From positions 132,225,241 through 132,289,240 of the forward strand of contig OY282559.1 of the NCBI GenBank assembly GCA_958295665.1: DNA of 64,000 nt. The letters are read 5' to 3'. The stretch comes from Tipula vernalis. Lineage: Eukaryota > Arthropoda > Insecta > Diptera > Tipulidae. Shown in pieces: positions 1-63,564 of this stretch (its first letter is position 1; each line of letters starts with the position of its first letter). The translations under genes and the position numbers were made by a program. The notes beneath the pieces were generated by a model. That model had not been told where the DNA came from and did not search any database. It saw only the letters and a program-made list of their open reading frames with translations.

Positions 1-247
1 TAACAACAAAATTTCATTTCGGTCAATAATTTGGGTTGTTATGTTTGATTGCATTTTTTATGCATTACAATTATTGCAAGTCGTGTGACATTTATTTAGT
101 TTTGTCGGTATGTTTTTTTTTTGTGTCCCACATTTAATTGCTATTGGACGATTTTCATATATTGATAGTTAAATTTATTACATATTTTACTGATAGACCT
201 TTTCCAAATTTATGACCTAAATTTTAATTGATTTTACATATTTTTAT

Positions 248-2313
248 ATTAAACATTTTTTTAAAAAAAAAAAAAAATTTAATTTTTTTTTGAAGCGGAG
301 TGACGTAAGTGATCTTTTTATAATTAATATTATTTCGTATAATCACAAAACACCAACAGTTTTCACTTACTTAAAAATAAAAAAACCAAAATTTTATTTT
401 TGAATTTATTTACTTTTATTTATTTAAAATTACAACTAGTTTCGATCTTGTAAAAATCATCTACAGGTAATTTTTTGCAATTAAAAAACTAAAGTAAAAA
501 CAACTCTTATATATACAAAAATGTTTGTTTAACAGGTAAAAAAAAAAAACAAAAAAAATATAAAAAGGACTTATATATAAAAATACTAAACAAAATATAA
601 AAGAAATAATAAAAAAAAAAAAAACGGAGGCGGACAAACCCACAAATTTAATTAAAAATAAGGGGTATTGCGCTTGTTATGGTTAATTTTTAAAAGTTAT
701 TTTAAATAAGGGGGAATTAATTTTTGCATCATCTGTGTTCATGAGATTTGTGGTGTTGGCGATGTGGTATGACTCGTATGCGTCTAGTTTCCATTTTTGA
801 TGTACTGTTTTTATTATTTTTGAAATAGTGGTGTCTATTTTGTGGTTATGGTGGAACATATGATATGCAACACTAGATTTATTCCAGTTGGCTTTTTCAT
901 GTTCTTTAAGCCTAGTGCTGAAATCTCTCGAAGTCTGGCCGATGTAGGTGTCCTGGCAATCAGAACATTTAATTTGGTAAATTCCAGACCGTAAATCTTG
1001 TGTTACATTATCTTTAAAGTTGTTTAAATCCTTTTTGATGGTTGTTGATGGACGGGTGACAAGTTCTATGTTGTGTTTGTGGAAGACGCGCTGAAGTTTA
1101 TTGGTGATATCCGGAAAGTATGGAACGCTGACTCTAGTAGTATTCACCGTTTCCATGGCTGGTTGTAATGTGGTGAGTGATGATTTGATGTGCTTGGCTT
1201 TGTGCTTGTTGATAATGCTATCAGCAAATTGAGTAGAATACCCATTGGCTACGGCCGCGTTCTGAATAAATTTAACCTCCTCATCAAATTCCGACTGCTC
1301 CATAGGTATATTAAATAATCTATGCGCCATAGAATGAAACGCTGCTTGCTTGTGCGTCACATGGTGAAATGAATCTACTGTTATGAATCTATTTGTATTT
1401 GTAGACTTTCTAAAAATTCCAAATTTTAATTTATTGTTATTATTTCGGATGATTTTTATATCCAGGAAGTTCAAAATGCCATTTTCCTCGGTTTCCATTG
1501 TAAACTTAATTGCTGGATCTATTGTATTAATATGGTTGAAAATAGCTGGCAAATGAGGTTGTTTCACTATTGCAAAAATGTCATCTACATATCTAAGCCA
1601 AATCCTCGGGAACAGGTTGAAGTTTTGTTTTAGATTTTCCTCCATGTTGCTCATGAATACGTTGCTTAGGTATGGCGCCAATTTGCTTCCCATGGATGTT
1701 CCGGATGTTTGCTGGTAAAATTTATCTCGAAATTGAACAAAATTCTGCTCCATGCATGTATCGACAATTTTGATGTAAGCTTGTATTAGACTTGCCTGTA
1801 CTTGATTTTTTAAAAGATGATCCTCCAAATTGTTTATTGCCGTTTTTATTGGGATACTCGGGAACAATGCTGTCACATCAAATGATACTAATATTTCATC
1901 AGGAGCTAATGTTATGTCTGTTAGTTTTTCCACTAGCTCCTTTGAATTTATTATACTGCATCCTTTTGGTGGTGGAATCATTTCCAGCTCTTTCAACAAC
2001 CATTTAGCCATGTTTTCTGTAGGTGTCGAGATATTTGATGCAATTGGTCTCATCTTGTTACCGGGCTTATGAATTTTCGGCAATGCATAAAGCTTCGATA
2101 CCTTCGGATTGGTAACGTGAAATTTGTACTCTAATTGACGATCATTCAATATAGCTGCTATTTCCTTTGTTACATTTTTGGCTTGTTTGACCATGTTGTT
2201 GAGAGGGTCCCTTGGATTGTTGTTTCTCCAAGTGTGTTCTTTGTATGGACCTTCGGCTATTGTTGATAATACTCGTTCATCGTAATCCCGTTTATCCAAA
2301 ATGACGACATTAT
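248..2313 (-). mobile_element. Penelope-like element (PLE), 5' truncated, inside an LTR
   Basis: The 13-nt segment TACATATTTTTAT occurs at 235-247 and again at 2314-2326, exactly where the interrupted LTR resumes, so it is the target-site duplication. The enclosed 2066 bp carry one long minus-strand frame with Penelope-type reverse transcriptase and a GIY-YIG endonuclease. Positions 248-682 are the AT-rich 3' untranslated part. The element begins within the RT N-terminal region, so it is a 5'-truncated copy, as is common for PLEs. It must be younger than the gypsy insertion. Confidence 0.93.
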
Positions 2314-2344
2314 TACATATTTTTATTATTACGAAATATCGCAT
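683..2344 (-). CDS. Penelope-like reverse transcriptase with GIY-YIG endonuclease, N-terminally truncated
   Basis: The frame is open for 553 codons. Visible RT motifs, in order, are YALPKIHKPGNKMRP (residues 86-100), FDVTALFPSIP (155-165), TSGTSMGSKLAP (213-224) and the catalytic RYVDDIFAI (251-259). A GIY-YIG nuclease follows, with GIY at 454-456, CSDC at 460-463 and YIG at 467-469, the Cys pair being typical of Penelope-type nucleases. The RT copies the element RNA and the nuclease opens the target. The apparent start codon at 2344 lies in the gypsy LTR, so about the first ten residues are host LTR sequence, and the native N-terminus is missing. The rest shows no stop or frameshift, which points to a recent insertion. 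The copy itself is probably not autonomous because it lacks its 5' part. Confidence 0.93.
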   Translation of the reverse strand: MRYFVIIKICNNVVILDKRDYDERVLSTIAEGPYKEHTWRNNNPRDPLNNMVKQAKNVTKEIAAILNDRQLEYKFHVTNPKVSKLYALPKIHKPGNKMRPIASNISTPTENMAKWLLKELEMIPPPKGCSIINSKELVEKLTDITLAPDEILVSFDVTALFPSIPIKTAINNLEDHLLKNQVQASLIQAYIKIVDTCMEQNFVQFRDKFYQQTSGTSMGSKLAPYLSNVFMSNMEENLKQNFNLFPRIWLRYVDDIFAIVKQPHLPAIFNHINTIDPAIKFTMETEENGILNFLDIKIIRNNNNKLKFGIFRKSTNTNRFITVDSFHHVTHKQAAFHSMAHRLFNIPMEQSEFDEEVKFIQNAAVANGYSTQFADSIINKHKAKHIKSSLTTLQPAMETVNTTRVSVPYFPDITNKLQRVFHKHNIELVTRPSTTIKKDLNNFKDNVTQDLRSGIYQIKCSDCQDTYIGQTSRDFSTRLKEHEKANWNKSSVAYHMFHHNHKIDTTISKIIKTVHQKWKLDAYESYHIANTTNLMNTDDAKINSPLFKITFKN

Positions 2345-2747
2345 TACTTTGAATTTTGAAATTATGATCTACATTATTTATTTCCTTATATTCTAATACA
2401 TAAAATTTACTACCGATCATATTTCTTTTTTCTTTTCGCTCCATTGACCTATAATGTTATGTATTGCGATATTCCACTTTACTTTATTTTTATATTACAG
2501 ACGGTTACTTAATTTCTTTATATGTCATATGTCTCGTATTTTCAAGTTCATCATTTTCAATTTGTTTTGGTAACTAACCTTAATATTGTATGTGTTATAT
2601 TTGATATTCATATTCCTGAATGTTTACTATTTATTGTCGTATAATGATGGTCAGTGCCATTATACAATTATATTAATTATTTACTATGTATGTTAGATGT
2701 TGGGAAATGGTATTATTTCCTATGGGAAATGATGCCGTTTCACAACA

Positions 2748-3781: not shown

Positions 3782-4132
3782 TTACTGCATGTTTATTATT
3801 CTATCCGCTGGTATCTCTCTTTTTTCAGTTTTACTGATAATTTCGCTCGGAGTTCTAACTGTGGCTTCTGTGGGGACCTCGTGTTTAATTTTAATTTCTG
3901 TCGAGCTATTCTTCCTACATAACCAAAGAATTACACAGGCTATGACTACTCCTGTTATAATTCCTCCTATGACGAATTTGTAAACTTTAACTTCATGGTC
4001 CGTTCTGTTATTGATATGTGACCGTTCTGATTCTTCAACGTCTGTGGATAACTTATTTAACTTAATTTGTTTTATAGGGTTTCTACAGAATATTTCTGTT
4101 AGCGGAGGAGAGTAGAAAACAAAAAATATTTC
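3782..4132 (-). pseudogene. env C-terminal remnant of gypsy-1 (membrane anchor and cytoplasmic tail)
   Basis: Minus-strand translation of 4132-3785 gives about 116 residues with no ATG at the front, bounded upstream by a TAA at 4133-4135 and downstream by a TAA at 3782-3784. It contains an Asn-Arg-Thr sequon, then a hydrophobic stretch of ~20 residues beginning FVIGGIITGVV, then a polar Lys/Glu/Thr-rich tail of ~45 residues. This single-pass anchor with a tail, directly downstream of pol, is the expected C-terminus of a gypsy-type envelope protein. The surface and fusion parts are absent, since only ~160 nt separate this frame from the pol stop. The call rests on position and topology, not on recognised envelope motifs. 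Confidence 0.6.
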
Positions 4133-4290: not shown

Positions 4291-7200
4291 TTAATTCTTC
4301 TTCAACCGATTGTTGTGAATGTTTTTGTTTTTCCCTCTAACCTCTATTAGTGTGTTAGTAGGGGATAGTACCTTTACCACCGGATATGGTCCTAACCAGA
4401 TAGGATCTTGCTTGGTCCTCCTCATTTCATTTCTAACCCATACTAAATCTCCATTATTCACATGAAAGGATGCCGTATCTTTGTCATAACTCTCTTTTGC
4501 CTTTTCTTTCTTTTTGAGGATATTCAGGCGAGCTATGTGATGAGCTAGCCGCAACCGAGCTTTTAGCTCGCTGACATAGTCATCATAATTGTATAAAGGT
4601 TGCGGTTCCTTTTTGACGGCTGTTAGTACTAAGGCTGGTCGACCAAACACCAATTCATACGGGGTGAAATTTGTGGAGCAATGGGGTGTCGTGTTGTACA
4701 CGAACATTGCATAATGAACCATTTCATCCCAATTGTGATGGTCTATATCTGCGAAGTTTCGGAGATATTCCTTGAGAGTGTTATGGGATCTTTCAAGAGC
4801 ACCATTTGTCTGCGGATGAAAACTCGTAGTAGTTATATGTTTAATTTTGAGTAGTTTGCAGATATTCTCAAATATATTGCTCATGAAATTAGACCCCATA
4901 TCAGTTAGGATTTTTTCGGGTGCTCCAAATTTCGTGATATATTGTTCGCACAGTGCCTTTGCTACTGTGTTAGCCTTTTCATCCGGTATGGGGATAGCAC
5001 CAGAGAATTTACTTAAATCATCTTGGAACGTCAATAGATATTTGTTCTGTGCTTCGGTTGTGGGCAAGGGACCTACAATGTCCAACGCTACCCGTTGGAA
5101 AGGGAATTCTGAAGTTTCGGTTAGCACTAGAGGGACTTTTGTTCGTCTGCTCGCTTTGTTTTGTTTACATTTCTTACATTTCTTAACGTAAGTTTTTACT
5201 TCTTTTAACAAATTTGGCCAATAATAATTCATTCGAATTCTTTTATAAGTTCGAAACACTCCTGCATGACCTCCTAGTGGTAGATCATGTTTTTCGAGGA
5301 GGATTTGAGCCTTGATTTTTGGGTCTGTGATAATTTGGACGTTCTTCTGCGTCACATAACCGTTTTCAATGTTCGAAGGGCTAGTGGTTTCGTGAAGTTT
5401 TGTTGCTTTGTTGTCTGATGGGTTCTCCTCTTGTGTGGATGATAGTTGCTTTGCTTGTGCTCTCGTGATTACTTTGACTTCTTCTTGGCGTATTCTACTA
5501 AGTGCATCTGCCCCTGTGTTTGATTTACCCGAGACATGTACTACGTTATAGTCATATTCTGCGAGTTGTAATCTCCACTTGAGGATTCTTTTTGATGCAT
5601 TTTTTAGGTCGCCAATTAGAGGTTTATGGTCTGTTTTAATAGTAAACTTTCGACCAAACAGATAAGGTCTAAATATTTCGACTGCCCATTTTGTTGCGAG
5701 CATTTCTTTTTCTATTGTTGAGTAATTCCTTTCTGCAAGCTTAAGAGAACGACTAGCGTAGGCAACTGGCAAGTCGTCTCCATCGTGGATTTGGCTGAGA
5801 ATGGCTCCCACGCCAAACTCGCTAGCGTCTGTCGTTAATACGAACATACGGTCGAAATCGGGATATTGGAGGATTGGAGAGGTAGTAATTTTACTTTTTA
5901 GACAGTCGAACGCGGTTTGACTTTTTTCGGACCATTCGAATTTGTTTTTCTTTTTGGTTAATTGGTGCAGAGGTTCTGCAATTGTAGAAAAAGCTGGGAC
6001 AAACTTTCTGTAATAACTGGCGAGACCAAGGAAACTTTTGGTTTCACGCATATTCCGTGGAACTGGGAAATTTACAATGGCTTCTACTGTTTTGGGGTTA
6101 GGCTTGATGCCTTGAGGAGTAATAACATGTCCTAAATATTGAATCTCCTTACAGAGGAATTGACACTTCTCTGTCTGAATTTTTAAGTTGCTTCTTCTAA
6201 GCGCTGAAAAAATGTCCCTCAACTTACTATTGTGGTCTCTCAAATTCCTCCCATAGACAATCACATCATCTAGGTAAACGAAACATTTAAGGCCCTGTTG
6301 TCCTAACAACACACTATTGATCATTCTCTGGAATGTGCTTTGGGAATTTTTCATTCCGAAGGGCATCCTGAGAAATTCAAAGTGGCCATAGTCCGTACTA
6401 AATGCTGTTTTGTGCCTATCACAGGGATCCATCTCTATTTGATGATACCCGCTGGCCATGTCTAGGGTAGAAAAATATTGTGAGTGACCCAGTTGGTCAA
6501 AAATGTCGTTGATTAATGGGAGTGGGAATGAATCTCCTATAGTGGCTTCATTGACTCTACGAAAGTCTACTACCACTCTCCATTTTACTTTACCATTTTT
6601 GTCCGGTTTTTTTGGTACCACTAGTAAAGGACTATTAAAGGGACTGGTGCTGTGCGTGATGATATTGTCATCCAGCATCTTTTGTACCTGGGTATCTATT
6701 TCTTTCTTCAGTACTTGGGGAATTCTGTACTGTCTGGTGTTTATTGGAGGTGTATTATTATGAAGACGAACTTGGTGTTTGACACCTGGAACGCTTGTAA
6801 GTTTGTCACCTTCGACAAAGAAAATATCGGAATACTCCCTGATTAATTCAAGTAGTGTAGTGGATTCTTCTATGTTAAGATTTTTGTCCATAGTCGTAAC
6901 TACTTGATTGATAACCAAGTCTTCTCTACTTTCGGGATGTTGTCTGTCATTCATTTCAGAACATTGATCCAACTGCATGATGTCATATTGACGAAGATCA
7001 GTGAGTTTCGGGACGAAGTTTTTGATAGTTACTTCGTTAGGATTTGTATTTACAATGCTGATTTGTGCTTTCAGCCTGTCGGGTTGGATAAGACAGTTAC
7101 CAACAAAGACACCTTGCATTATCTCTTCAGAATTGCATAGGTATGGGTTATTCGTGGGGGTTTGGATTTGTATAATTACTTCCTTCCGTGGAGGAAGGTT

Positions 7201-7626
7201 TACTACAGTTGGACGATTAAGAAATTTGATTGTATTCCCCAAGATTTTTAGCTCCGAAGTGCTGTACAAAATATCTACTTTATTTCCGTTAAGGAAATCT
7301 CTTCCCAGAATTCCATCCTGATCAATTGGGAATTCGTCCTCAACTACCTGGAATTTCTGTGGAATCTTAAGATGTGGTGTGATTTCTATATGAGTAGATA
7401 CACATCCAAGAGTGGTGGTGGCTTCTTTGCCGATCCCTTTTAACAGGGTTTTACCACTTTGATCTATCGATCTGGGGTTTTTGATCATTTTTTGTTTGAT
7501 CAATGACACGGAAGCACCAGAATCTATTAAGAGGATAGATTCTTTTTTTGATGCTCCGAGCTTCAAGCTCACCATATCGTGGGTAAACTTGTGCTTTGAT
7601 ACTAGATTGATTTGGTAGGAATTCAA
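4291..7626 (-). CDS. pol: gypsy-1 Pol core: protease, reverse transcriptase, RNase H, integrase
   Basis: The open frame covers 1111 codons. In order: retropepsin with LLIDSGAS (residues 33-40); RT with MPFGMKNS (421-428) and catalytic YLDD (451-454); RNase H with TTDAS (598-602) and DHKPL (666-670); the integrase zinc module (His 780, His 787, Cys 817, Cys 820); and the catalytic triad Asp 849, Asp 909, Glu 945. All key residues are present. The frame stays open above the TTG at 7626 into the 57-bp repeats, so this is not the true start. Pol is expected as a Gag-Pol fusion made by -1 frameshifting at 8793-8799. It ends shortly before the env remnant. Confidence 0.95.
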   Translation of the reverse strand: MNSYQINLVSKHKFTHDMVSLKLGASKKESILLIDSGASVSLIKQKMIKNPRSIDQSGKTLLKGIGKEATTTLGCVSTHIEITPHLKIPQKFQVVEDEFPIDQDGILGRDFLNGNKVDILYSTSELKILGNTIKFLNRPTVVNLPPRKEVIIQIQTPTNNPYLCNSEEIMQGVFVGNCLIQPDRLKAQISIVNTNPNEVTIKNFVPKLTDLRQYDIMQLDQCSEMNDRQHPESREDLVINQVVTTMDKNLNIEESTTLLELIREYSDIFFVEGDKLTSVPGVKHQVRLHNNTPPINTRQYRIPQVLKKEIDTQVQKMLDDNIITHSTSPFNSPLLVVPKKPDKNGKVKWRVVVDFRRVNEATIGDSFPLPLINDIFDQLGHSQYFSTLDMASGYHQIEMDPCDRHKTAFSTDYGHFEFLRMPFGMKNSQSTFQRMINSVLLGQQGLKCFVYLDDVIVYGRNLRDHNSKLRDIFSALRRSNLKIQTEKCQFLCKEIQYLGHVITPQGIKPNPKTVEAIVNFPVPRNMRETKSFLGLASYYRKFVPAFSTIAEPLHQLTKKKNKFEWSEKSQTAFDCLKSKITTSPILQYPDFDRMFVLTTDASEFGVGAILSQIHDGDDLPVAYASRSLKLAERNYSTIEKEMLATKWAVEIFRPYLFGRKFTIKTDHKPLIGDLKNASKRILKWRLQLAEYDYNVVHVSGKSNTGADALSRIRQEEVKVITRAQAKQLSSTQEENPSDNKATKLHETTSPSNIENGYVTQKNVQIITDPKIKAQILLEKHDLPLGGHAGVFRTYKRIRMNYYWPNLLKEVKTYVKKCKKCKQNKASRRTKVPLVLTETSEFPFQRVALDIVGPLPTTEAQNKYLLTFQDDLSKFSGAIPIPDEKANTVAKALCEQYITKFGAPEKILTDMGSNFMSNIFENICKLLKIKHITTTSFHPQTNGALERSHNTLKEYLRNFADIDHHNWDEMVHYAMFVYNTTPHCSTNFTPYELVFGRPALVLTAVKKEPQPLYNYDDYVSELKARLRLAHHIARLNILKKKEKAKESYDKDTASFHVNNGDLVWVRNEMRRTKQDPIWLGPYPVVKVLSPTNTLIEVRGKNKNIHNNRLKKN

Positions 7627-7742
7627 CGCTTCGGGGGACGTGTGGATTTGGGCGACAGTGACAGTGGTGAATGGCTCCGATGGCGGCCAAACCTCCTCTG
7701 TTTCTTTCGGTTCGGCGGACGTTCTCTGACCGTTATTATTTT

Positions 7743-8662
7743 GGTATGAGAATGGATTTATACGAACTACCGAGGCGGGGCTCTGGCAGTTATTATTTAG
7801 GTGCGAGGCGGAACTCGTAGGAACTACTGAAGCGGAACTCTGGTAGTTATTATTTAGATACGAGACGGAACTCGTAGGAACTACTGAGGCGAAACTCTGG
7901 TAGTTGTTATTTGAGTACGAGATGGAACTCGTAGGAACTACTGAAGCGGAACTCTGGTAGTTGTTATTTGAGTACGAGATGGAACTCGTAGGAACTACTG
8001 AGGCGGAGCTCTGGTAGTTATTATTTAGGTACGAGACGGAACTCGTAGGAACTACTGAGGCGGAACTCTGGTAGTTATTATTTAGGTACGAGACGGAACT
8101 CGTAGGAACTACCGAGGCGGAACTCTAGTAGTTATTATTTAGGTACGAGACGGAACTCGTAGGAACTACTGAGGCGGAGCTCTGGTAGTTATTATTTAGG
8201 TACGAGACGGAACTCGTAGGAACTACCGAGGCGGAACTCTGGTAGTTATTATTTAGGTACGAGACGGAACTCGTAGGAACTACTGAGGCGGAACTCTGGT
8301 AGTTATTATTTAGGTACGAGACGGAACTCGTAGGAACTACCGAGGCGGAACTCTGGTAGTTATTATTTAGGTACGAGACGGAACTCGTAGGAACTACTTA
8401 GGCGGAGCTCTGGTAGTTATTATTTAGGTACGAGACGGAACTCGTAGGAACTACTGAGGCGGAACTCTGGTAGTTATTATTTAGGTACGAGACGGAACTC
8501 GTAGGAACTACTGAGGCGGAGCTCTGGTAGTTATTATTTAGGTACGAGACGGAACTCGTAGGAACTACTGAGGCGGAGCTCTGGTAGTTATTATTTAGGT
8601 ACGAGACGGAACTCGTAGGAACTACTGAGGCGGAACTCTGGTAGTTATTATAAAGATATGTG
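7743..8662 (-). repeat. 57-bp tandem repeat, about 15 copies, in frame with pol
   Basis: The plus-strand segment GAACTCGTAGGAACTAC recurs at exact 57-nt spacing from about 7809 to 8607, fifteen times, with partial units at both ends. Copies differ by single substitutions. Fifty-seven is divisible by three, so copy number can change without altering the pol frame. Confidence 0.95.
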
Positions 8663-8740
8663 TCTGAACTCGGTGTCATGGCCGAGACAGAACCTGGTTT
8701 ACTTATATTACTACTATTAATGTATATCTTTTCGGGAAGT

Positions 8741-8799
8741 GGACTCGTCTGAACTACAGCTGGTGTTGCTGATGCTCGACGAGTCCCCCTTCGTTTCCC
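8741..8799 (-). promoter_or_regulatory. -1 ribosomal frameshift signal: slippery heptamer GGGAAAC plus stem-loop
   Basis: In the gag frame the heptamer reads G GGA AAC (8799-8793), the X XXY YYZ pattern in the correct register. Slipping back one base continues in the pol frame. After a 6-nt spacer comes a perfect 9-bp stem, GGACTCGTC (8786-8778) pairing with GACGAGTCC (8749-8741), around a 28-nt loop. The gag stop lies within the loop, at 8754-8756. Heptamer, spacer and stem match the known layout of retroviral frameshift sites. Confidence 0.85.
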
Positions 8800-9941
8800 T
8801 GGTGATGAATTGAGTTTTCGTTGACGTTTTCTATATAGTTAATATTCATTCTCTGCAGACCGTTCGTTAATTGATTGATGTCCTGATCTCTCCGGTAACT
8901 CTGTGGATCCCTGTTAAGGTAAGTCGGTTGCCTTTGATTAACTGTGGGCTGTAATGATCTTACTGGAGGTTGATAAGGATTCTGTTTTATTGGACTGTTG
9001 TGTGTGTTCCTGCGTGGCTCGAGATTGTGCTGGACCCTATTTGGCTGATAATTTCGTCGTCCATTATTTTGTTGGTAATTTTGTTGATTTCTGTTTGGAT
9101 ACTGATTCTTAATTCCAAACTGTGGCTCGTAGAGTTGCGCTCCGGACTGTGACTGTTGGTACCTTAGATTTGCGGCATTTCTGGCGGCACAGTTCTCCAA
9201 GATATGCCCGAAACGTTTGCAATACCTGCATGATACGGTTGGTACTACAACTTCCCTCCGTGCATGTGTCAAGGTATTGGTTCGGCATGTCTTCGCACTG
9301 TGGCCTGCCTTGTCACAAAGCTGGCACCTTGCCAGTGTATCCCCCTGGCTGCCAGTTGCTGTTGCTCTGGACAAACCAAGCTGACGCTCTACTCTATCTG
9401 CCATTTCAACAAGTTCTTTCAAGGATTTCCCTGTGGCCATCGACAGGTTTGTTCGGATGGCTTCGTTGTGTAATCCACGAACGAAAGCCTCCTGTTCTAA
9501 TGTGGCCACAAGGGGTTTCGGGAGTGCATTTGCCTCACCATATTTGGTACGGACTCCTGCTTCATAATCTAGTGCATGACTCTGTATCTGACTACCGAAG
9601 TCTGCACAGCTCTCGAATTTCCCTTGCTTGGCATTCCTTAATCGGTCTTGTAGTGATTCTATTGTGTGGGTGGGTAAAAATTTCTTTGCTATCAAACTAT
9701 AGAAGTCTTTGAGATCTTCTATATGGATGTCTTTGAACATCGTATATGCCCTACCACGAAGTCTAAATAGAATCTCGTCCAATAAGGTTGCCAGCTGTTC
9801 TGGTTTACCTAAGAGTTGTTTCTCGACGCGTTTGCACGCGTCTAAGAAGAAATAAACCTCGCTGGGGTCGACCTCAGCTTGGCCATAGAAAAGAGGAACA
9901 CGTTTCTCTACTAATTCTTGAATCTGCGTCAAATTAGCCAT
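8754..9941 (-). CDS. gag: gypsy-1 Gag (capsid-like domain and two CCHC zinc knuckles)
   Basis: The open frame continues up to the LTR edge, but the first in-frame ATG is at 9941, giving 395 residues, and I take this as the start. The first ~190 residues form an alpha-helical capsid-like region of Ty3/gypsy type. Two CX2CX4HX4C nucleocapsid knuckles follow at residues 206-219 (CQLCDKAGHSAKTC) and 238-251 (CRYCKRFGHILENC), then an Asn/Gln/Arg-rich tail. Gag packages the element RNA in virus-like particles. The 3' end overlaps the pol frame at the frameshift signal. The frame is intact. Confidence 0.93.
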   Translation of the reverse strand: MANLTQIQELVEKRVPLFYGQAEVDPSEVYFFLDACKRVEKQLLGKPEQLATLLDEILFRLRGRAYTMFKDIHIEDLKDFYSLIAKKFLPTHTIESLQDRLRNAKQGKFESCADFGSQIQSHALDYEAGVRTKYGEANALPKPLVATLEQEAFVRGLHNEAIRTNLSMATGKSLKELVEMADRVERQLGLSRATATGSQGDTLARCQLCDKAGHSAKTCRTNTLTHARREVVVPTVSCRYCKRFGHILENCAARNAANLRYQQSQSGAQLYEPQFGIKNQYPNRNQQNYQQNNGRRNYQPNRVQHNLEPRRNTHNSPIKQNPYQPPVRSLQPTVNQRQPTYLNRDPQSYRRDQDINQLTNGLQRMNINYIENVNENSIHHQGNEGGLVEHQQHQL

Positions 9942-10030
9942 TTTTCTTTCTATAATCTCAGTGTACGTTGGAACGGGCGGAATGAAATATTTCGAATGAA
10001 TGATTTTTTTCCTACTGTCCCTGAGCGGAA

Positions 10031-10048
10031 CGCTTTGCGGCAGCGCCA
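10031..10048 (-). promoter_or_regulatory. Putative primer binding site of gypsy-1
   Basis: One nucleotide inside the 5' LTR the minus strand reads TGGCGCTGCCGCAAAGCG. TGG at this point is the expected complement of a tRNA CCA end. I cannot assign the tRNA. Confidence 0.6.
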
Positions 10049-10049
10049 A

Positions 10050-11214
10050 TGTTATATAAATAGGGGTTAATGCCTACTTATACATTCACTAAACCTAAAC
10101 TAACTAGAGCCTAAATACTGTTTATTTAAGGCAAGTTTTTAATGTTAGAGAATTTATAGATTCAACGATTCGAGCTTACCTCGGGTGGGGGCTATTACCG
10201 AATCGTGAATTTATTTATCTTTAGATGGAGAATGCCGCTAGGCACAGTGTTATTTGACTATTCGGATACCTTGAGCACCGCTAACAAAAGAAACACGTGC
10301 GTAGCACTTTTTGGTTCTTTTGAGAGTGTTCTCTCAAGGCCTGGGCGTTATTGGTTAGTTGTTGTAATACTTACTTCTTATATTCTGGATCTGGAAGATG
10401 ATAGAAACTCCGCTTCTTGGTTTAATATTTTTTATTTAATATACTTATTTCACTTTGACAATGTTGTGGTTTTGAGATTCAAGACTATATTACTTATATT
10501 AAATTTTGTAAGCCTTATATACTAATTTTGTGTGTGTCTTTTGCACTAACAACAAAATTTCATTTCGGTCAATAATTTGGGTTGTTATGTTTGATTGCAT
10601 TTTTTATGCATTACAATTATTGCAAGTCGTGTGACATTTATTTAGTTTTGTCGGTATGTTTTTTTTTTGTGTCCCACATTTAATTGCTATTGGACGATTT
10701 TCATATATTGATAGTTAAATTTATTACATATTTTACTGATAGACCTTTTCCAAATTTATGACCTAAATTTTAATTGATTTTACATATTTTTATTATTACG
10801 AAATATCGCATTACTTTGAATTTTGAAATTATGATCTACATTATTTATTTCCTTATATTCTAATACATAAAATTTACTACCGATCATATTTCTTTTTTCT
10901 TTTCGCTCCATTGACCTATAATGTTATGTATTGCGATATTCCACTTTACTTTATTTTTATATTACAGACGGTTACTTAATTTCTTTATATGTCATATGTC
11001 TCGTATTTTCAAGTTCATCATTTTCAATTTGTTTTGGTAACTAACCTTAATATTGTATGTGTTATATTTGATATTCATATTCCTGAATGTTTACTATTTA
11101 TTGTCGTATAATGATGGTCAGTGCCATTATACAATTATATTAATTATTTACTATGTATGTTAGATGTTGGGAAATGGTATTATTTCCTATGGGAAATGAT
11201 GCCGTTTCACAACA
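10050..11214 (-). repeat. 5' LTR of gypsy-1 (1165 bp, complete)
   Basis: Begins TGTTATATAAATAG and ends GTTTCACAACA on the plus strand, so it has TG...CA ends. The last 668 nt match the interrupted left LTR. A small plus-strand ORF at 10205-10525 is LTR sequence and is not called. Confidence 0.9.
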
Positions 11215-12839: not shown

Positions 12840-15800
12840 CTGAAATTCTAATCCAGATTTGGCCCAGTTCCATTGAACATGACGAACGGTTGATTGAGAG
12901 AATTTCTGACCCAAAATGTTCTACAAACCAACGAACTTAGCAGTTCTAATGATATTCTTTGATCAGGAATATTCATAACCATCCGAAAAATGTAGTGGCT
13001 GAATTTGTGCTAATCCAGATTTGTCACAATTCCATTGAACATGAAAAATGGTTAATTGAGCGAATTTCTGACAAAAAATGTTCTACAAACCAACGAACTT
13101 GGCAGTTCGAATAATATTCTATGATCGGGAATATTCATAACCATCCGAGAAATATGGTGGCTGAATTTGTGCTAATCCAGATTTGGCCCAATTCCATTGA
13201 ACATGAAAAATGGTTGATTGAACGAATTTCTGACACAAAATGTTTTACAACCCAACAAACTTAGCAGTTTTAAAGATATACTTTGATCAGAAATATTCAT
13301 AACCATCCAAAAAATATGGTGGCTGAATTTGTGATAATCCAGATTTGGCCCAATTCCATTGAACATGAAGAATGGTTGATTGAACGAATTTCTGACACAA
13401 AATGTTCTACAAACCAACTAAATTAGTAGTTCTAATAATATAATCCGATCGGGAATATTCATAACCATCCGAAAAATATGGTGGCTGAATTTGTGCTAAT
13501 CCAGATTTGGCCCAATTCCATTGAACATGAAAAATTGTTGATTGAATGAATTTCTGACACAAAATGTTCTACAGACCAACGAACTTGGCAGTTCTAATAA
13601 TATTTTCTAATCGGGAATATTCATAACCATCCGAGAAATATGGTGGCTGAATTTGTGCTAATCCAGATTTGGCCCAATTCCATTCAACATGAAGAATTGT
13701 TGATTTAACGAATTTCTGACACAAAATGTTTTACAAACCAACGAACTTGGCAGTTCTAATGATATTCTAAGATTGGAAATTATCATAAACCTCCGAAAAA
13801 TATAGTGGCTGAATTTGTGCTCTACTCCGATAGAATATATTCATAATCATCCGAAAAATATGGTGGCTGAATTTGTGTCAATCCAGATTTGGCCCAATTC
13901 CATTGAACATGAAGAATGGTTGATTGAACGAATTTCTGACACAAAATGTTCTAAAAACCAACGAACTTAGCAGTTCTAATAATATTCTTTGATCGGGAAT
14001 ATTCATAACCATCCGAAAAATATGGTGGCTGAATTTGTGCTAATCCAGATTTGGCCCAATTCCATTGTTCATGAAAAATGGTTGATTGAACGAATTTCTG
14101 ACAAAAAATGTTCTACAAACCAACGAACTTGGCAGTTCTCATAATATTCTATGATCGGGAATATTCATAACCATCCGAGAAATATGGTGGCTGAATTTGT
14201 GCTAATCCAGATTTGGCCCAATTCCATTGAACATGAAAAATGGTTGATTGAACGAATTTCTGACACAAAATGTTCTACAAACCAACGAACTTAGCAGTTT
14301 TAATGATATACGTCGATCGGAAATATTCATAGCCATTAAAAAAATATGGTGGCTGAATTTGTGCTAATCCAGATTTGGCCCAATTCCATTGAACATGAAG
14401 AATGGTTGATTGAGCGAATTTCTGACACAAAATGTTCTACAAACCAACTAACTTAGTAGTTCTAATGATATAATCCGATCCGGAATATTCATAACCATCC
14501 AAAAAATATGGTGGCTGAATTTGTGCTAATCCAGATTTGGCCCAATTCCATTGAACATGAAAAATTTTTGATTTAACGAATTTCTGACACAAAATGTTCT
14601 ACAAACCAACAAACTTGGCAGTTCTAATAATATTCTCTAATCGGGAATATTCATAACCATCCGAGAAATATGGTGGCTGAATTTGTGCTAATCCAGATTT
14701 GGCCCAATTCCATTGAACATGAAGAATGGTTGATTGAATGAATTTCTGACACAAAATGTTTTACAAACCAACGAACTTGGCAGTTCTAATGATATTCTTT
14801 GATCGGAAATTATCCTAACCATCCGAAAAATATAGTGGCTAAATTTGTGCTAATCTAGATTTGGCCCAATCCCATTGAACATGAAAAATGGTTGATTGAA
14901 CGAATTTCTGACACAAAATGTTCTACAAATCAACGAACTTAGCAGTTCTAATGATATAATTCGATCCGGAATTATCATAACAATCCGAGAAATATGGTGG
15001 CTGAATTTGTGCTAATCCAGATTTGGCCCAATTCCATTGAACATGAAGAATGGATGATTTAACGAATTTCTGACACAAAATGTTCTACAAACCAACAAAC
15101 TTGGCAGTTCTAATAATATTCTCTAATCGGGAATATTCATAACCATCCGAGAAATATGGTGGCTGAATTTGTGCTAATCCAGATTTGGCCCAATTCCATT
15201 GAACATGAAGAATGGTTGATTAAACGAATTTCTGACACAAAATGTTCTACAAACCAACGAACTTTGCAGTTCTAATGATATTCTCCGATCGAGAATATTC
15301 ATAACCATCCGAGAAATATGGTGGCTGAATTTGTGCTAATCCAGATTTGGCCCAATTCCATTGAACATGAAGAATGGTTGATTGAACGAATTTCTGACAC
15401 ACAATGTTCTACAAACCAACGAACTTAGCAGTTCTAATAAAATACTCCGATCGGAAATATTCATAACCATCCGAGAAATATGGTGGCTGAATTTTTGCTA
15501 ATCCAGATTTGGCCCAATTCCATTGAACATGAAGAATGGATGATTTAACGAATTTCTGACACAAAATGTTCTACAAACCAACAAACTTGGCAGTTTTAAT
15601 AATGTTTTCTAATCGGGAATATTCATAACCATCCGAGAAATATGGTGGCTGAATTTATGCTAATCCAGATTTGGCCCAATTCCATTGAACATAAAGAATG
15701 GTTGATTGAGCGAATTTCTGACACAAAATGTTCTACAAACCTACGAACTTGGCGGTTCTAATGATATTCTCCGATCGAGAATATTCATAACCATCCGAGA

Positions 15801-15920
15801 AATAAAGTGGCTGAATTTGTGCTAATCCAGATTTGGCCCAATTCCATTGAACATGAAGAATGGTTGATTGAACGAATTTCTGACACACAATGTTCTACAA
15901 ACCAACGAACTTAGCAGTTG
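12840..15920. repeat. 162-bp satellite array, 19 monomers with higher-order organisation
   Basis: The marker CCAGATTTGGCCCA recurs at about 12853, 13015, 13177, 13339, 13501, 13663, 13885, 14047, 14209, 14369, 14531 and onward to 15827. Spacing is 162 nt except for one 222-nt interval that holds a 60-nt partial copy. Monomers are highly similar and differ mostly in a ~20-nt variable window (..ATTCTTTGATCGGG.. and variants). The order of variants repeats with a six-monomer and then a three-monomer period. The array ends abruptly at 15920 within a monomer. ORFs here are by-products of the repeat. Confidence 0.96.
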
Positions 15921-40460: not shown

Positions 40461-41814
40461 TAAAATTTTTTAGAATTATTAAAAGTTGTTTTTTATGGTT
40501 GGTTTAGGTCGTTTGTTAGAGTAGAACTAACGAAAGTTTTGGAGAGTTTGAGTCTAGAATGAAAATGAAGTTTCCCATTCTAATTTAAAAATTAAATCTC
40601 TGTTTCGGAATATATTGAAATTTAATCTACCTTTTCCAGATTTCAAAATTGGGATAATTTCATTTCTTGATTTGGGAGTTGGTTCGTCTTCATTAAAATA
40701 TAAAAATTGGGAATTATTGCATCACCTGGAATGTCTGATCATAGTTAGACAATTTGACTAAGTAGTCTATAAGGACAAGACCATAATGACTAAAAAGATA
40801 TGCGTACAATAAAAGTTGTCAATAGTTACATCTAAAAAGGTCACTCAAACATTAAGCCACAGCATTCAAAACAAGATTCTCACTATCTATACAAATGGGT
40901 ACAAAATAAAATGGGCATTGACAGTTCAAAGGACAAAAACTTGGAGGAGCTGCTTTCAAAGCATTGAAATACTCAACTAAAATGAATACAAACTTAGCGG
41001 AGTTAGAACTAAGTTTCTAGGCATCGAAAAATGACCCTGCTCAATTCTTGGAAATGTAAATTGGGTTTCGGCGCAATATTCGGCTTAAACTTTGATAAAA
41101 TATAGAGTTCAAGTTATGCTGATCAAAAACGGTTAAATTCTACAAAAAAATCAGATTATATACAAATTGCTAGATAAAAAACACAAAGATGACAGATGTC
41201 TAGGCATTCGGTCGGGGTCCTTTTTGGGCTTAACCCTTTTATTTTTAAACGTTATTTAAAAAAATCTTAAACTACTCAAATACACCTTGCTTTACTAAAG
41301 GATGTTAGTCACAAAATTTTGTTTTCACATGAAAATAGCAGCAACAAAAACATAAAGGCATTTTGTAAGAAAACGAAGCAAGATATTGCGCAAATTTTTG
41401 ATTATGTCTAAGAGAATTAAATGAGGTAGAAGATAAAATATAAGAAAAAATATGAACATGGGAGAAAAGTCAAAAAGAATGTTTCGGCGGCCATTTTGAA
41501 GAAAAAAATGAAAGATTATACCATTTTTATGATTATTATTCATTCATCTTTAAAATGAGCCCAATTCTAATTTTTGGCTAATTAGTTTTTATTTCTGTAG
41601 CAATAAATACAATACACGTGGATGAAATTTTTCAATATTTGAGACCCTGCATCTTAAAAAACAACAACAACAAAAATAATCATGTTCCGTACGTTGTTTG
41701 TTTTGCTCAGTGCTACACATTCAAAACATAAATATCATAAAATTCAAACATGACTTCCGGCCTGTATAAAGAATTTGTGAGTTCATGTATTTTTCTCCCT
41801 ATACATATATATAC
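40461..41814. other. AT-rich intergenic stretch, no gene
   Basis: Only short compositionally biased frames; no repeat copy recognised. Confidence 0.55.
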
Positions 41815-42377
<563 letters not shown>

Positions 42378-42402
<25 letters not shown>

Positions 42403-43970
42403 CCTCCGGGGGGTGGAGAAAGGGCGTCCCCGTCCTTTAGTTTTTTGGAAGCTTCTCTTATGATATTTGATAGTTGATTTAATTGATTGGTTTCCTGTGT
42501 CTCGGAAATACTTGGCTTTGTTATTTTTATTGTCGCAGTTTGATAATTACGAAGGGTAATGTAAATTATTAAGACTATTATCGTGATTGATGAGAGTGAA
42601 ACGCCTCCCGATAGTGTCCATATCCAGTTTTTGTGGCTGAGTTGTTCCAGGTATACATTTTTGATTTGTTTCCTGTTTTGTATGTTATCTTGGTTAATCG
42701 TATCGATGTTCAGCGTTTTCACTAATTGTCGGGTTGCTTGTAGGTTGTAGAGTGCTCCCTGTGTTTCTTGCACATCGCTTGTTATGTCGTAGGATTGAAA
42801 TTCCCTGTTTTTAATTGCTATAGTGCAGTTCCAGAATGTTATTAGGAGGTTCCCGGATAGTGTTCGATTGTTGGGTCCACAGTCAGAAGATAATTTTTCG
42901 TTCTTCGCGTTGTTTATAATAAGTTTATTTTCTGAAATAAACTGTAGTTTCGTTTCCATCTCTGATATCACTTTGCAGTTGCTTCTCGTTCCCATTATAA
43001 GTGGTTTGACACAATCGTCCTGGAACTCTTGAATTTCAGAATGTCTCTGGACGTAACTTTTGTGATCTAATGTGGAGTATAGTTTTTCTTTACTCTTAAT
43101 GAGGTATTGAGGGTGGTCTTTTATGATTGTGCCATTAACTACTAGTGGTACAATCATCATTATTTCAGAGTTTTCCTTTTCTAATTTTGGTACTTGAAGT
43201 ATGTAGAGCAATGTCTCGCCATTCACGGCTATTTTTGGTGTAACGTACTTGAGTGCTTCATCCGGTATTGTGATATTGATTCCCTGGTTGACCAATAAGT
43301 CCTTTATCATTACTATTTCGTTTATTGCTAGAATTTTTCCACTTGGGAGGTTCGCTTTTGTTCTAATTATCGCGTCTTGAATATCTTCCAGGATTGTATT
43401 AATGGAATCTATGCTTACTATTGTTGCCAGCATCTCGATTTCCGTTAGAACTATTTTGTTACTGATAGTGCTATTGGCTACCGCTCTGTTCACGGTATCC
43501 GTAATAATTTGAATCCTTTTGTCAATTTGTTGATTAATTAGGATTTGTTGATTGTTTGTGTCAATCAGCTGGTTCATTGTGGTGTTAATCACACGCAGAT
43601 CTTCCGCATCCGGGTTTCCGGCAATCCATTTCCATGCAGAGCCTAAACTATCCCATCGTTTATACCTGTTATACTGTTTTGGTTTTATTTGGCGTAGGTT
43701 GCTATATATTCTCTTTAATTTTTGTTTGACTATATTGTCTAGTTCTAACTTATCATATGATACATTGATGTTTAATTTGTTAATAAGTTCTACTGTTATT
43801 TCTATCTTAGTAAGGTTAATAGGGTGAATAATTTTAATATTTCCTGTTTGGATTCTACATTGACCCGATTTTATTATTAATATAGGGTCTTCTTGTAGGT
43901 TTTTTATTTCTTGTTTTTGCATCTTATATTGATAAAATAAGGTAGTCAAAGCAAATATTTTCCATAACAT
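42378..43970 (-). CDS. env: Errantivirus Env, class I-type fusion glycoprotein, intact frame
   Basis: The frame is 530 codons, starting ATG at 43970. A hydrophobic N-terminus (residues 1-14) can serve as a signal. A basic furin-like site RYKR (102-105) is followed by LGSAWKWIAGNPDAEDL, the conserved stretch after cleavage in insect errantivirus envelopes, which are related to baculovirus F proteins. A heptad-like region and cysteines follow. A single membrane anchor spans about residues 455-473, with a ~57-residue cytoplasmic tail. The short N-terminal subunit before the site is normal for this family. The stop lies 25 nt inside the 3' LTR. No lesion is visible, unlike gag and pol of the same copy. 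Confidence 0.92.
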
Positions 43971-44174
43971 TGTTATTTTCTGAAATTTAAAATAATAAAA
44001 ATTTATATTCTATTTATTTATATTTTTTTTTGTTTCAATGATTAATTTTGTATTTGTTTTTTTTTATATTTATTTTTATTTAATTAACAATATTTTATAA
44101 TAGGTTTTTAATAATAGATTTTTACAATTACAACTTATTATTATGTGGGAAAAAAAATGTATATAATTGTTAAG

Positions 44175-45251
44175 TTACTTTTTTAATCTCTTGATTTTAT
44201 TTTTATTTCGTTTAATATTTTTATTTATATTGAATGTTTTAGAAGTTATATTTTTGATTTGAGCTTTGACTCCTCTAGGTTGTGTTTTAGATCTTGTGTT
44301 TGGCTTTAAATATACCAATTGATCTTCTACTAGGTCAGGTGGATTTTCTTTGTTAGTATTTTGTTTCTCCATTATTTTAACCGCGCCTTCTATATTTAGA
44401 GTTACATTTCTAAATATTTTATTAGTTTGTTTACTAATTTCATTAGGGTCAATGTGGTTGGTTTTATTGAAGATGATTTCATTTGGCGTGTAGCCAGTAG
44501 ATGAATGTACTGACCTATTGTATAGGGCAACTGACAATTCAATGACGGTTGGAGTACTGGAATTTGGGACTTTATCTTTGTTTGTATTGAAAATCTCAAT
44601 CACTGTTGAATGAGTTTTTTCTACTTGTCCATTTGATTCGGACGAAGAAGCATATTCCAACTTAACGTTAGGTTTATTTAGAAATTCTTTGAATTGAATC
44701 GACTGAAATGTCGTCTCATGGTCTGAGACGATAGTATTGGGTATCCCGAATTGTGTGAAGTATTTGGTTAGGGCACTGGTTGTGTCCAACAAGTTTTTTG
44801 TGTCAATTTGAATCATATGCAGATGTTTCGAAAACGCATCTATCACCGATAAGAAACTTGTTCTATTGATGCTAAATATGTCAATATGTATTCTTTCAAG
44901 GGGTTTTCTCGTGATCGGTCGGGGGGATATTTTTATGTTGTAAGGTTTTCTATCATATTTATGCATATGACATATGTTACAAGCGTTAATATGGCTTTTG
45001 ATTTTCTTTGCCTTGTTTGGGAAGAAATAAGAACGTCTAATTTGACTTTCCACTTCACTTATGCCCCTATGAGCTCGTTTATGTTCTTTCACAATGATAG
45101 TGTTTTGACGATGCTCGTTTGTCACATCTTCGATCATTGTTGTGGCAAAAACAAAATGACCGTTTCTTGAGAAGTTTTCTTTGAATACCTCTTGGATTTT
45201 CTGATAAAAGGCCTCTGGTGCTAGGATAGCCGACTGTTTACCATTGTGGAA
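44175..45251 (-). pseudogene. Errantivirus integrase part of pol, separated by one nonsense codon
   Basis: The frame 45137-44175 continues that of 45839-45252 after a TAA at 45252-45254, with open sequence between (..NGKQSAILAPEAFYQK..). The zinc module has HKRAHRG and CNICHMHK; the catalytic residues are Asp in HIDIFSI, Asp in VSDHETTF and Glu in NGQVEKTHS. A basic C-terminal tail (Lys/Arg/Asn-rich) ends the product at 44175. The integrase itself looks complete. Confidence 0.9.
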
Positions 45252-47520
45252 TTAATATTTGAGGATATCTTCTTTCTCGAACGTTTTCTTGGAAATGATA
45301 ATTCTATTGTAATTTTGAAAGATTTGTTCTGTGATTACAGTTTCTAATTTAGATATTTTAAATATGATTTGGTTCCTATAGTAATTAACTGTAATAAAAT
45401 AATGATCTGAGGTTTCTGCTGAATGGACCGTTTCTACCTCACTTGTAGTGCTTGGCGGGTTTCCATCAGTACTTTCTGATTCACGTGTAGTGATTTCTTT
45501 GCCCTCATTGACGTTGACTTCTTTTATGATTGGTATTCGACTTAGTGCGTCTGCTACGACGTTAGCCTTCCCCTCCTTATACACGACATCATAGTCGTAA
45601 TTCTCTAACTCTAGACGCCACCTCAGAATTTTCGCATTCTTTTCAGAGGTTTTAATAAATGTTAAAGGCTTATGGTCAGTGACCAATGTAAATTTGCTAC
45701 CGTACAGGTAGGGTTGATATTTTTTGACGACCCAGATGATGGCCAGTGCCTCTTTTTCATTCGTGGCGTACTTTGATTCTGTATTATTTAGAGTTCTGGA
45801 AGCAAATGCGATGGGTCTTTTGACACCATCCTGAATCATCCGTCGTTAGTATGAACGGTCTTGAAAAATCTGGGTACGCTAATATCTGATCAGTTGATAT
45901 AATTCTTTTGAGGGTTTCAAAAGATTTAACGTATTCCGGATCTGTTATGTTCATTGAAACGTCTTTTCGTAAATATTTAGTCATGTTTTTTGCTATTTTC
46001 GAGTAATCCTTTATGAATCTCCGATAATAGCCAGACAGTCCAAGGAACTGTTTTATTTCTTTTGGTGTTCTTGGTAACGGCCAATCTAATATTTTGTTTA
46101 TTTTGTCAGAATTGGGTTTTACTCCTTCTTGGGTGATGGTGTGGCCCAGAAATTCTGTTTCCTTTTTTAAAAATTCACATTTATCAATTTGAATTTTTAG
46201 ATTGAATTGGGATAATCTTTTAAATACTGTCACCAAGTTATCTATGTGATTTTCTAAATTATGCCCTATGACGATTATGTCATTTAAATACACGTGGCAA
46301 ATTTTACCTATTAGGCCATGTAGTACATTGTTCATTGTTCTTTGGAAGGTGGCTGGGCCATTTTTCAGGCCAAACGGAATCCGGGTGAATTCGAAATGTC
46401 CTTTGTCCGTTGAAAACGCGGTTTTTTCCTGGTATCTCTCGTCCATTGGAATCTGGTGGAAACCATATTTAAGGTCTATTGTCGAAAAGTAAACGGAGTT
46501 ACCCAAACTGTCGAGGATTTCCTCAATTTGAGGGATAGGGAATTTATCGTTTCGGGTTTTTTCGTTCAACTTCCGGTAGTCTATTACTACTTGTACTTTT
46601 CGAATTCCCGACGCGTCCATTTTTTTTTAGAACCACCCAAATTGGTGATGAGTATGGGCTGTTTGAATTTCGAACAATGCCGCTATCCAATAATTCTTGG
46701 ATTTGCTCTTCTACGTCTTTTTTATAGCAATGCGGGTACCGATACGTCTTTGTGTATATTGGGTTATCGTCTGTCGTGATAATCTTGTGTTTGGTTATTG
46801 TCGTTGCCGACAATTTTTCGTCTTTTTTTAATAAAATAGCCTGATGTTTAAAAATAACTTCTGTTAATATCGATTTTTCGGTTTCACTCAAATGTTCTGT
46901 TCTGATTAGTTTCGATATCGTTTTTCTATCGATCCATTCATTTTTTGCGATGGGGATAGGATTGATTGTTTCGAAGTTATTTACTTTAAGTATTAATTTT
47001 GGAACCTTTTTTGGTGGTTCAGGGTCTCCAGTTAACACATTAATTGTGGTTTTAAATTGCGTTGCTTTATACAACCCTGGCTGTACCATTATCTCTTCGT
47101 TTAGTCTTTCGAAGTTTGGTACTAGCCAATCGCCATTCTCCGTTGTATTCAACGTTATATTATGATTATAGAAGTTATTCTGAGGGTAATATCTATTGAA
47201 TTTATAAATGCACTTATTCAGAGTAATTATATTGGACTTATAGTCTAATTTTGCATTCATCTTGGCCATGGATTCTGAACCTAGTATTCCATCGAAAAAT
47301 TTATGGAATTGTAATTCATAGAATACTAGTGATGGCATGTTTTTTCCTAATAAATTTATTTTGACTTTATTATTAATTTTGTGAGTTCCTAGCAGATTTT
47401 CAACTATTGTTTTTTTTTGTCGCCTCTTTAAAAGTAGGCTTCATTAAACCGACTATTTCTGGTTTAATCACGTTTTTATTCGCGCCTGTGTCAATTAAAA
47501 GTGTTATTTCGCGCTTAAGA
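45252..47520 (-). pseudogene. Errantivirus pol: protease, RT, RNase H, frameshifted
   Basis: The protease motif LLIDTGANKNVI is near 47490-47455. One extra A in a 9-A run near 47411-47419 shifts the frame into 47338-46544. A second extra base in another A run near 46622-46630 shifts into the RT frame 46620-45784. The RT has MDERYQEKTAF and IPFGLKNGPATF, but its catalytic motif reads YLNDIIVIG in place of YLDD. In RNase H, TTDDSGWCQK shows that about ten residues after TTDAS are lost with a frame change near 45835, and then DGVKRPIAFASRTLN and DHKPL continue to 45252. Confidence 0.92.
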
Positions 47521-47526
47521 TGTTCA

Positions 47527-48686
47527 TTATAACACTTCAGATACGGGAGAAAATTTAGTCTTCCGTGTCCGAATTCTGTGTCCCCTGAAAATTTCCTGCG
47601 TCTTCTTCAGGATTATTTTCATCTGCGGTTCTTGTGGCAGATTATCTTCACTTTCTTGTGCGATCTCATGGTTATTGAATAAGTTTTTGTTGAACGTTCT
47701 TCTAGATCTTATCGACTGATCGACTTCCATAGGAATTGGTGAATTTTTCACCGAATATGTCTGTTTCCGTTGGTTTGTCGGAATATAATCGTGGTTTTTT
47801 ATAGTATTCGATCTATTTTGGTTCAATTGGTTTGGTTTTTGCTGTTGATAACTGGTTTGTGCCAGTCTTTTGGAATTTTCAGAAATTAGTTCATTTGAAC
47901 TAAACTTACACAGAAAGGCGTAAGCCTCTTCAATGTCTTTTGGCTTAGCCGCTTGGGCATAACCAAAATACGGCTTTTTCAATCCAGATACAAATGCAGC
48001 CAGTGCGTCTTCTTCTATAAACGCACATATCGCAGGCCATGCATTACTGTAAAGTTTATTTTGCCTAGATAGTGATTTAATACTCTGTACCGTTTCTTTA
48101 ATTTTTTTAAAGTAAGTATGCACAGTCATTGTATCACTTTGTTTGTTAGCCCAAAGCTGGGACTTATAATGAGAAAGCTCTTGGCGGTCACTCAATGCTT
48201 CTATTAATTTTTCCTTGATTTCTATAAATGTTTGAGGATTTCCAGCTAGACATCAAATGTCCTTTGCTTTCCCTTCAATTTTGTTCATTACGGCTTGTAT
48301 ATACAAACCAAATTGCTGGTCCGAGACCAATGGTTGGAATACTAGCAGGATATCCTCAGCTGTTTTCAGCCTGGCTGGCCCGTTGTTTCCGGTTCCCATC
48401 GAAATGTGGTATGTACTTCATTGGATCCGGGATCCTAAATAAATCTACCGCTGACATTTTTTCCAATTTCTTGTTGGATGTCATTTCAATATTATCTTGG
48501 GATTTTTCTTCTTGGGAAAATTGAGTTCAGTCTTTCCTCTTGATATACCTGTGCTTCGCCAAGCTTTTTCAGCTCTTCAACGATCACATTTAATTGTGTT
48601 GTAATTTCTTCCATTGTTATCTCGTTGAGATCGATATTCCGATTTTTATCGTACTTTTCGATTGGTCGTTTCTTTACCATAGACAA
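47527..48686 (-). pseudogene. Errantivirus gag, broken in at least three places
   Basis: It starts at ATG 48686 (MSMVKKRPIEKYDKN) and is open to 48492. The reading then moves to a frame with MSAVDLFRIPDPMKYIPHFDG, then after another shift near 48380 to LKTAEDILLVFQPLVSDQQFG.., where a TGA near 48265 precedes LAGNPQTFIEIKEK. From 48195 to 47527 it is open, with FVSGLKKPYFGYAQAAKP and an Asn/Gln/Lys-rich nucleocapsid-like tail without CCHC knuckles, as usual in this group. The copy is dead for particle formation unless complemented. Confidence 0.88.
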
Positions 48687-49235: not shown

Positions 49236-51075
<1,840 letters not shown>

Positions 51076-53953: not shown

Positions 53954-54248
53954 CCCGTGTGGGGTTGGCTAGCTCCCCCATCGGGTGCCTCCCCTGGTGG
54001 CGGATAGGGGACCGCCTGCCAGATATGGCAGGTACCGGGAAAATCAAATACCCGGGGTGGACCAAAAGCTAGCACACCCAAGCTAAGGTGGCACTACATA
54101 CGCCGATAGCTGCTGGGCTAAGGGGATGCTTAGTCGCTAGTATGTGAACCCCGGTTTTGGCGACAATCAGTTTAAATCATAGCCTTCCTATGATAATGCA
54201 GAGCTCTGTCATAGGTGACCGTTTTTCGTGCTACTCGTGGGAACAGAA

Positions 54249-55721: not shown

Positions 55722-55727
55722 ACGTAG

Positions 55728-63501: not shown

Positions 63502-63564
63502 TTGGCTAACTGATGTTTTAGCACAAGAGGTTTTTGTCGCACATGCCTCTGATGATGAAGGTGC

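Follow-up and report, generated by a model that had tools for sequence, protein, structure and literature searches.

A coding tandem array upstream of the protease in a Ty3/gypsy retrotransposon family of Tipula vernalis

The retroviral transframe region p6* of HIV-1 occupies the same place as the repeat described here, after the -1 shift site and before the protease, and to our knowledge it contains no repeats. Among LTR retroelements, the plant Ogre/Tat and Retand elements carry family-specific tandem arrays of variable length, which also occur in pol-less non-autonomous copies (PMC7004042, PMC11963269). Ty1 Gag is reported to have a prion-like domain that is required for retrotransposition and is interchangeable (PMC10372613). 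Retroviruses are well documented to switch template at direct repeats; such repeats of 50-75 bp vary in copy number, and one of 110 bp underwent deletion at 41% in a single cycle (PMC3187697). LTR retroelements are thus already known to carry repeat arrays and low-complexity domains; for the position between Gag and protease, a literature search of incomplete coverage returned no coding tandem repeat.

Anatomy of the element and its array

The locus lies in a window of 64,000 nucleotides (the whole stretch of DNA analysed). On the minus strand, a Ty3/gypsy element begins at 11214 and runs off the window at position 1, its 3' end being beyond the edge. Its 5' LTR (10050..11214, minus strand, ∼1165 bp) has TG...CA ends and is followed just downstream, from 10048 on the same strand, by a predicted primer site, TGGCGCTGCC, both being read from the sequence. 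The Gag ORF (8754..10049, minus strand; open frame 10073-8754, first ATG at ∼9941, stop at 8754-8756) encodes, as read from the translation, a pair of CX2CX4HX4C zinc knuckles and a tail rich in N/Q; it had no match in Pfam, and its homology search returned a single weak match. The Pol frame starts with a linker of 65 residues (8644..8838, minus strand), the last 19 of which (8644-8700) are a degenerate unit, runs through the array between Gag and protease (7732..8643, minus strand), and continues into protease, RT, RNase H, and integrase (4291..7731, minus strand; Pfam RVP, RVT_1, RT_RNaseH, Integrase_H2C2, and rve). The order PR-RT-RNase H-IN is that of Ty3/gypsy (Metaviridae), as are the LTRs with a predicted tRNA primer site and the zinc knuckles of Gag. 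Downstream of Pol, an open frame of 116 codons (3782..4132, minus strand) with a hydrophobic, membrane-like segment had no Pfam match and is a possible env remnant. The 3' LTR (1..2747, minus strand) is truncated at the window edge and interrupted by an insertion at 248-2312; its pieces 1-247 and 2313-2747 show zero substitutions against the 5' LTR, with one gap per alignment (∼686 bp compared), which is indicative of a recent insertion of the element. The element inserted at 248-2312 contains a reverse transcriptase and GIY-YIG ORF (683-2344, minus strand) and is Penelope-like by its domain make-up; it is flanked by a 14-bp duplication of LTR sequence (234-247 and 2313-2326, each corresponding to 10780-10793).

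Elsewhere in the window, a 162-bp satellite at 12848-15919 comprises about 19 copies and one irregular step, and its unit differs from the array unit. Long TA dinucleotide tracts are found at 41800-42055 and 49576-50252. Several separate frames at 42378-48252, including a 543-codon frame at 42378-44009 in the translations, belong to what we take to be a second gypsy-like element, that frame being presumably envelope-like. The frames at 54219-58393 and at 59679-63957 resemble, in our judgment, a non-LTR retrotransposon and a BEL/Pao-like element, respectively. The tRNA and Rfam scans of the window found none.

TRF applied to the window gave a period of 57 at 7732-8651, with 16.1 copies, 94% matches, and no indels; in the register of Pol this amounts to 16 units of 57 bp (19 residues each) at 7732-8643, or ∼304 residues. 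The original prediction, made from this sequence, had counted 15 copies of 57 bp and about 285 residues, so the repeat is real and the count is revised upwards. The unit, YQSSASVVPTSSVSYLNNN, and its coordinates bear out the Ser/Asn/Tyr-rich unit that had been placed between Gag and protease. The homogenisation that had been noted is also evident, as the 11 core units (8017-8643) vary only at two synonymous sites and at two in-frame stops (TAA at 8398-8400 and TAG at 8125-8127), while the units on the protease side diverge more than the core, as expected of arrays with turnover. Because of these two stops, the protease and the downstream enzymes of this copy cannot be made by ordinary decoding; the proposed repeat domain at the Pol N-terminus is thus retained, but not an open frame for it in this copy. 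The two stops, found in an element whose LTRs are free of substitutions, imply that this copy arose from, or as, a defective genome. An overlapping gene in another frame is ruled out by the 15-32 stops in each of the five other frames across the array. The array had no match in a plasmid DNA look-up, and its exact pattern had none in viral contigs.

Distribution, frame entry, and turnover across the family

A search of the 1.27-Gb assembly of the same genome with the array DNA gave 42 matches, 30 of which were taken as loci (L001-L030); the presence of the array at these loci is circular, as the array was the bait. They contain 7-19 units. The array is stop-free at 25 of the 30, with stops in L001, L002, L013, L021, and L028; L028 is a degenerate copy. 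A protease motif lies in the frame open after the array at 23/30 of these loci, and a stop-free, register-keeping array is joined to the protease motif at 20/30, so an unrelated satellite insertion is ruled out, the array being in register with linker and protease.

For a test with an independent bait, the protease-RT protein was searched, yielding at least 124 matches (121 of 7630 candidates were scored, and these numbers are lower bounds), and the best 30 of the 124 were read as loci. All 30 have a 57-bp periodic array upstream of the protease, and at 29 the frame open into the protease extends into the units, L041 having a stop right before the protease. Twenty-two were already among L001-L030 and eight were new, making 38 distinct copies read. 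A copy-specific expansion is hence ruled out, and relatives devoid of the repeat with a direct gag-protease junction, which would have spoken against the original prediction, were not encountered among the protease-RT-baited loci. The identity of protease-RT to the query separates subfamilies A (95-100%), B (76-77%), and C (mostly 75-76%); the C unit, SNQASHVSTIPPSSVSSGK, is a different one but is also of 19 residues (arrays read in five loci, L056-L060). The length of the Pol ORF falls into one class modulo 19 in 12 of 13 B copies (range 1250-1500) and 33 of 43 C copies (range 1300-1650; 13 of 56 C rows lay outside this range and were excluded). From these ORF lengths, arrays of only ∼2 units may exist at the low end, below the 7-19 units of the copies read. 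The more distant protease-RT matches are 45-50% identical, and the one that was read, L065 (50%), has a low-complexity pre-protease frame of 348 residues with just a short repeat of 15 residues.

The Gag and Pol frames overlap, Pol and the array being in -1 relative to Gag. A GGGAAAC heptamer (8793..8799, minus strand) lies in the phase joining Gag to Pol by -1, and is followed by a predicted frameshift-stimulating stem (8736..8792, minus strand; core GGACTCGTC/GACGAGTCC, -30.2 kcal/mol). Of the 30 array-baited loci, 26 have the heptamer in this phase (L013, L021, L025, and L028 do not), and at 25 of those 26 the Gag stop is 43 nt past it. The same signal is seen in subfamily B, at L056 and L059 of subfamily C, and in the distant L065, with a related predicted stem in B and the two C loci and a weaker one in L065. 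Two other heptamers, which passed the filter at L006 and L040, were regarded as chance. A slippery heptamer, a predicted downstream structure, and overlapping frames are features of a transframe domain, and -1 frameshift expression is predicted: ribosomes would shift at GGGAAAC and translate the linker, the Ser-rich 19-residue units, and then the protease.

The number of units changes faster than the sequence. Among 12 B copies compared, it differs in 58 of 66 pairs; without the mosaic L012, it differs in 49 of 55 pairs whose flanks show a mean of 5.3 substitutions per 2,800 bases. L003 and L023, with 14 and 8 units, are six units apart and have a single substitution in 2,800 flanking bases; L010 and L011 have identical flanks and equal unit numbers. 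In six A copies, the units number 7, 9, 11, 11, 11, and 16, and any two of these copies show 10-27 differences in their flanks. Active turnover, as had been suggested for the array, is therefore supported by near-identical flanks around arrays of different length. Unequal exchange, the route originally suggested, is possible, but template switching would fit dispersed near-identical copies better.

Mosaic copies are also present. L007 is A-like in early gag, B-like at the end of gag and in the linker, and A-like again after the array (99.6%), and L012 passes from A-like to B-like near the gag start. The array is not the sole recombination site, since the first switch of L007 is inside gag and that of L012 near the gag start. 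Linker types A and D are each found with protease-bearing and with protease-less 3' parts. As near-identical copies differ in unit number and mosaics occur, we infer that template switching by reverse transcriptase between direct repeats, on one RNA or between two co-packaged RNAs, is the main changer of unit number here, and that the same switching would, around the array, reshuffle Gag and Pol modules between co-resident subfamilies. Slippage or gene conversion of the inserted DNA may have altered unit number as well.

A further branch, subfamily E, is Pol-less. Fifteen Gag matches end at residue 385-389, in frames of 477-1500 aa, and in the two Pol-less matches read (L069/L066 and L067) Gag continues in frame into units of 30 residues followed by units of 11 residues (TIPPSTVSSVQ type), the latter numbering 29.8 copies in L066 and 77.8 in L067. 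The next E Gag is 6.57 kb on, and between the two lie an LTR 77% identical to that of the window over 224 bp and a primer site. L066, L068, and L069, which run end to end from Gag to the next Gag, had no PR, RT, or IN match at E 1e-5 in this one such unit. The dN/dS of 0.31 between A and E Gag is consistent with an E Gag that was kept functional for part of the A/E history. At L013, L019, and L021, gag and the array are present, with no protease in the stretch read.

Constraint on the peptide and on the nucleic acid

Distinct inner units have a pN/pS of 0.48 in A/B/D (63 distinct units from 30 loci) and 0.46 in C (nine distinct units), and E units one of 0.84 (63 distinct units of a motif-selected set, biased towards conservation of that amino-acid motif), against a protease-RT dN/dS of 0.09-0.13 for A versus B or C (B versus C being saturated), which indicates that the constraint on the peptide is weak. 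Within A, the few protease-RT changes against L034 and L040 give a dN/dS of 0.54 and 0.81, values that do not support recent purifying selection there. In typed representative units, Ser is 27-37% throughout the subfamilies; Asn drops from 16% in A to 5% in the commonest C unit and 0% in the E unit of 11 residues, Tyr drops from 10% in A to 0% in both of these, and 17 of 58 C units have Tyr in place of His.

These numbers bear on two alternatives. The first is a neutral, selfish VNTR prone to slippage, with the frame kept since 57 and 33 are multiples of 3; the pN/pS of E units, the very fast turnover of length, and degenerate copies such as L028 agree with it, but relatives also have a low-complexity region before the protease and pN/pS is 0.46-0.48 in the A/B/D and C units, and we hold it to be very unlikely. 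The second, which we consider quite unlikely, is a self-associating, prion-like low-complexity domain that aids the partition of Gag-Pol into particles or retrosomes. Conceivably in its favour, the A and B units are rich in Ser, Asn, Tyr, and Gln with no charged residues, the Gag tail is N/Q-rich too, the Pol-less E has a repeat domain attached in frame to Gag, and Ty1 offers the precedent cited above. However, the commonest C unit and the 11-residue E unit have not retained the Tyr and Asn, the domain of A-C is confined to the frameshift product, and unit number varies widely. The self-associating Tyr/Asn/Gln domain of the original prediction is thereby weakened: the subfamilies have its Ser richness in common, but not its richness in Tyr and Asn. 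Because Ser is kept while Asn and Tyr fall to 0% in E, a disordered spacer is favoured over a specific self-associating sequence, disorder being judged from composition.

A GAG-N6-CTC dyad recurs in every subfamily (whole loci scanned), typically twice per 57-bp unit, at spacings of mostly 24 and 33 nt in A-D (24+33=57) and 33 nt in E. This raises the alternative that the array is chiefly RNA, that is, strings of hairpins for packaging, dimerisation, or template switch, with coding as a side constraint. In E, variability at matched codon position is lowest in the stem (0.037), compared with 0.199 for the loop and 0.156 for the rest (p 0.0008 by stratified permutation, or 0.0011 when distinct units are used), and folding is better for C and E units than for their random synonymous recodings (p 0.007 each; 0.075 in A and 0.060 in B), although the p values for dyads and folding overstate independence, as the units share ancestry. 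With the unit's own synonymous codons permuted, 0 of 600 permutations reach the value of A, and p is 0.038 for B, 0.002 for C, and 0.168 for E. The retention and enlargement of the array in the Pol-less E and its retention at the three array-bearing loci read without a protease also fit a function in RNA. Against this, the stems are only 3-6 bp; the stem trend in A/B/D is weak (p 0.089 for one dyad and 0.105 for the other), as is the codon permutation for E; the units are homogenised and related by descent with non-independent positions, and the C-G to T-A changes may go back to a single old event; and arrays of as few as ∼2 units may exist. A chiefly RNA role therefore seems unlikely to us. 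The synonymous divergence between A and B is 0.287 in the array units versus ∼0.59 in protease-RT, which either array exchange or constraint on the RNA would explain. A dual-purpose array is a speculative reading, to which we give a slightly better but still low chance: RNA hairpins within the Gag-Pol frame would promote template switching between co-packaged genomes (perhaps also packaging or dimerisation), shuffling Gag and Pol modules and feeding a Pol-less Gag-repeat parasite, and translation would yield a disposable spacer.

The explanation that we favour, with moderate confidence, is that the array is a coding VNTR in the Gag-Pol transframe of a Ty3/gypsy family, namely a frameshift-expressed, length-tolerant, disordered spacer that is expanded and shuffled mainly by template switching of reverse transcriptase. 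The array protein would most likely be an intrinsically disordered tether between nucleocapsid and protease, tolerant of length and present in the Gag-Pol product only, and it would probably be cut away when the protease matures. Selection would mostly keep the frame open and the composition Ser-rich, without fixing sequence or length.

Relatives and comparison with known systems

A Pol homology search without the array gave 989 proteins, of which the best 120 were listed, and 127 Pol proteins were checked for repeats; a protease motif was found in 94, with more than 60 residues before the motif in 46 of the 94. Five passed the self-similarity cut-off, P0001 and P0041 only at period 6, and P0071 and P0076 (both from Plutella xylostella) and P0080 with a repeat of 26 residues. 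The latter three resemble our family in having a Ser/Thr/Asn/Gln-rich repeat directly before the protease, so the original statement that no such expansion is known in gypsy Pol was too strong; they differ from it in the 26-residue unit of unrelated sequence and in a Pol that is 40-41% identical to the query, from which we judge that their repeat is probably of independent origin. P0010 and P0011 (52% and 49% identical) have 384 and 189 residues before the protease and no tandem repeats by the self-similarity test; together with L065, these relatives have low complexity before the protease without long arrays.

Many copies with near-identical flanks and varied unit number amount to a natural set of Gag-Pol spacers of graded length within one genome. 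With such a set, it becomes testable how much slack is tolerated at the nucleocapsid-protease junction and how frequent template switching of reverse transcriptase at direct repeats is within a living retrotransposon family, and subfamily E adds a Pol-less relative bearing the repeat on Gag itself.

Compared with HIV-1 p6*, the region described here consists of repeats, and a regulatory role on the protease is not claimed for it. Subfamily E is like the TR-GAG non-autonomous elements, which have LTRs and gag and no pol, in that the one Gag-to-Gag unit examined has an LTR, a primer site, and gag with no pol; it is unlike them in that its Gag runs in frame into arrays of an 11-residue unit, with ∼30 and 78 copies in the two Gag matches read. 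The Ty1 prion-like domain is likewise a low-complexity, disordered region of a structural protein of an LTR retrotransposon (PMC10372613); it is N-terminal in Gag, whereas the array here is at the N-terminus of Pol, is made of tandem repeats, and does not keep its Tyr/Asn content. The Ogre/Tat and Retand arrays lie between pol and the 3' LTR (PMC7004042, PMC11963269), whereas the array of this family lies between gag and protease, is coding, and is read in the -1 frame.
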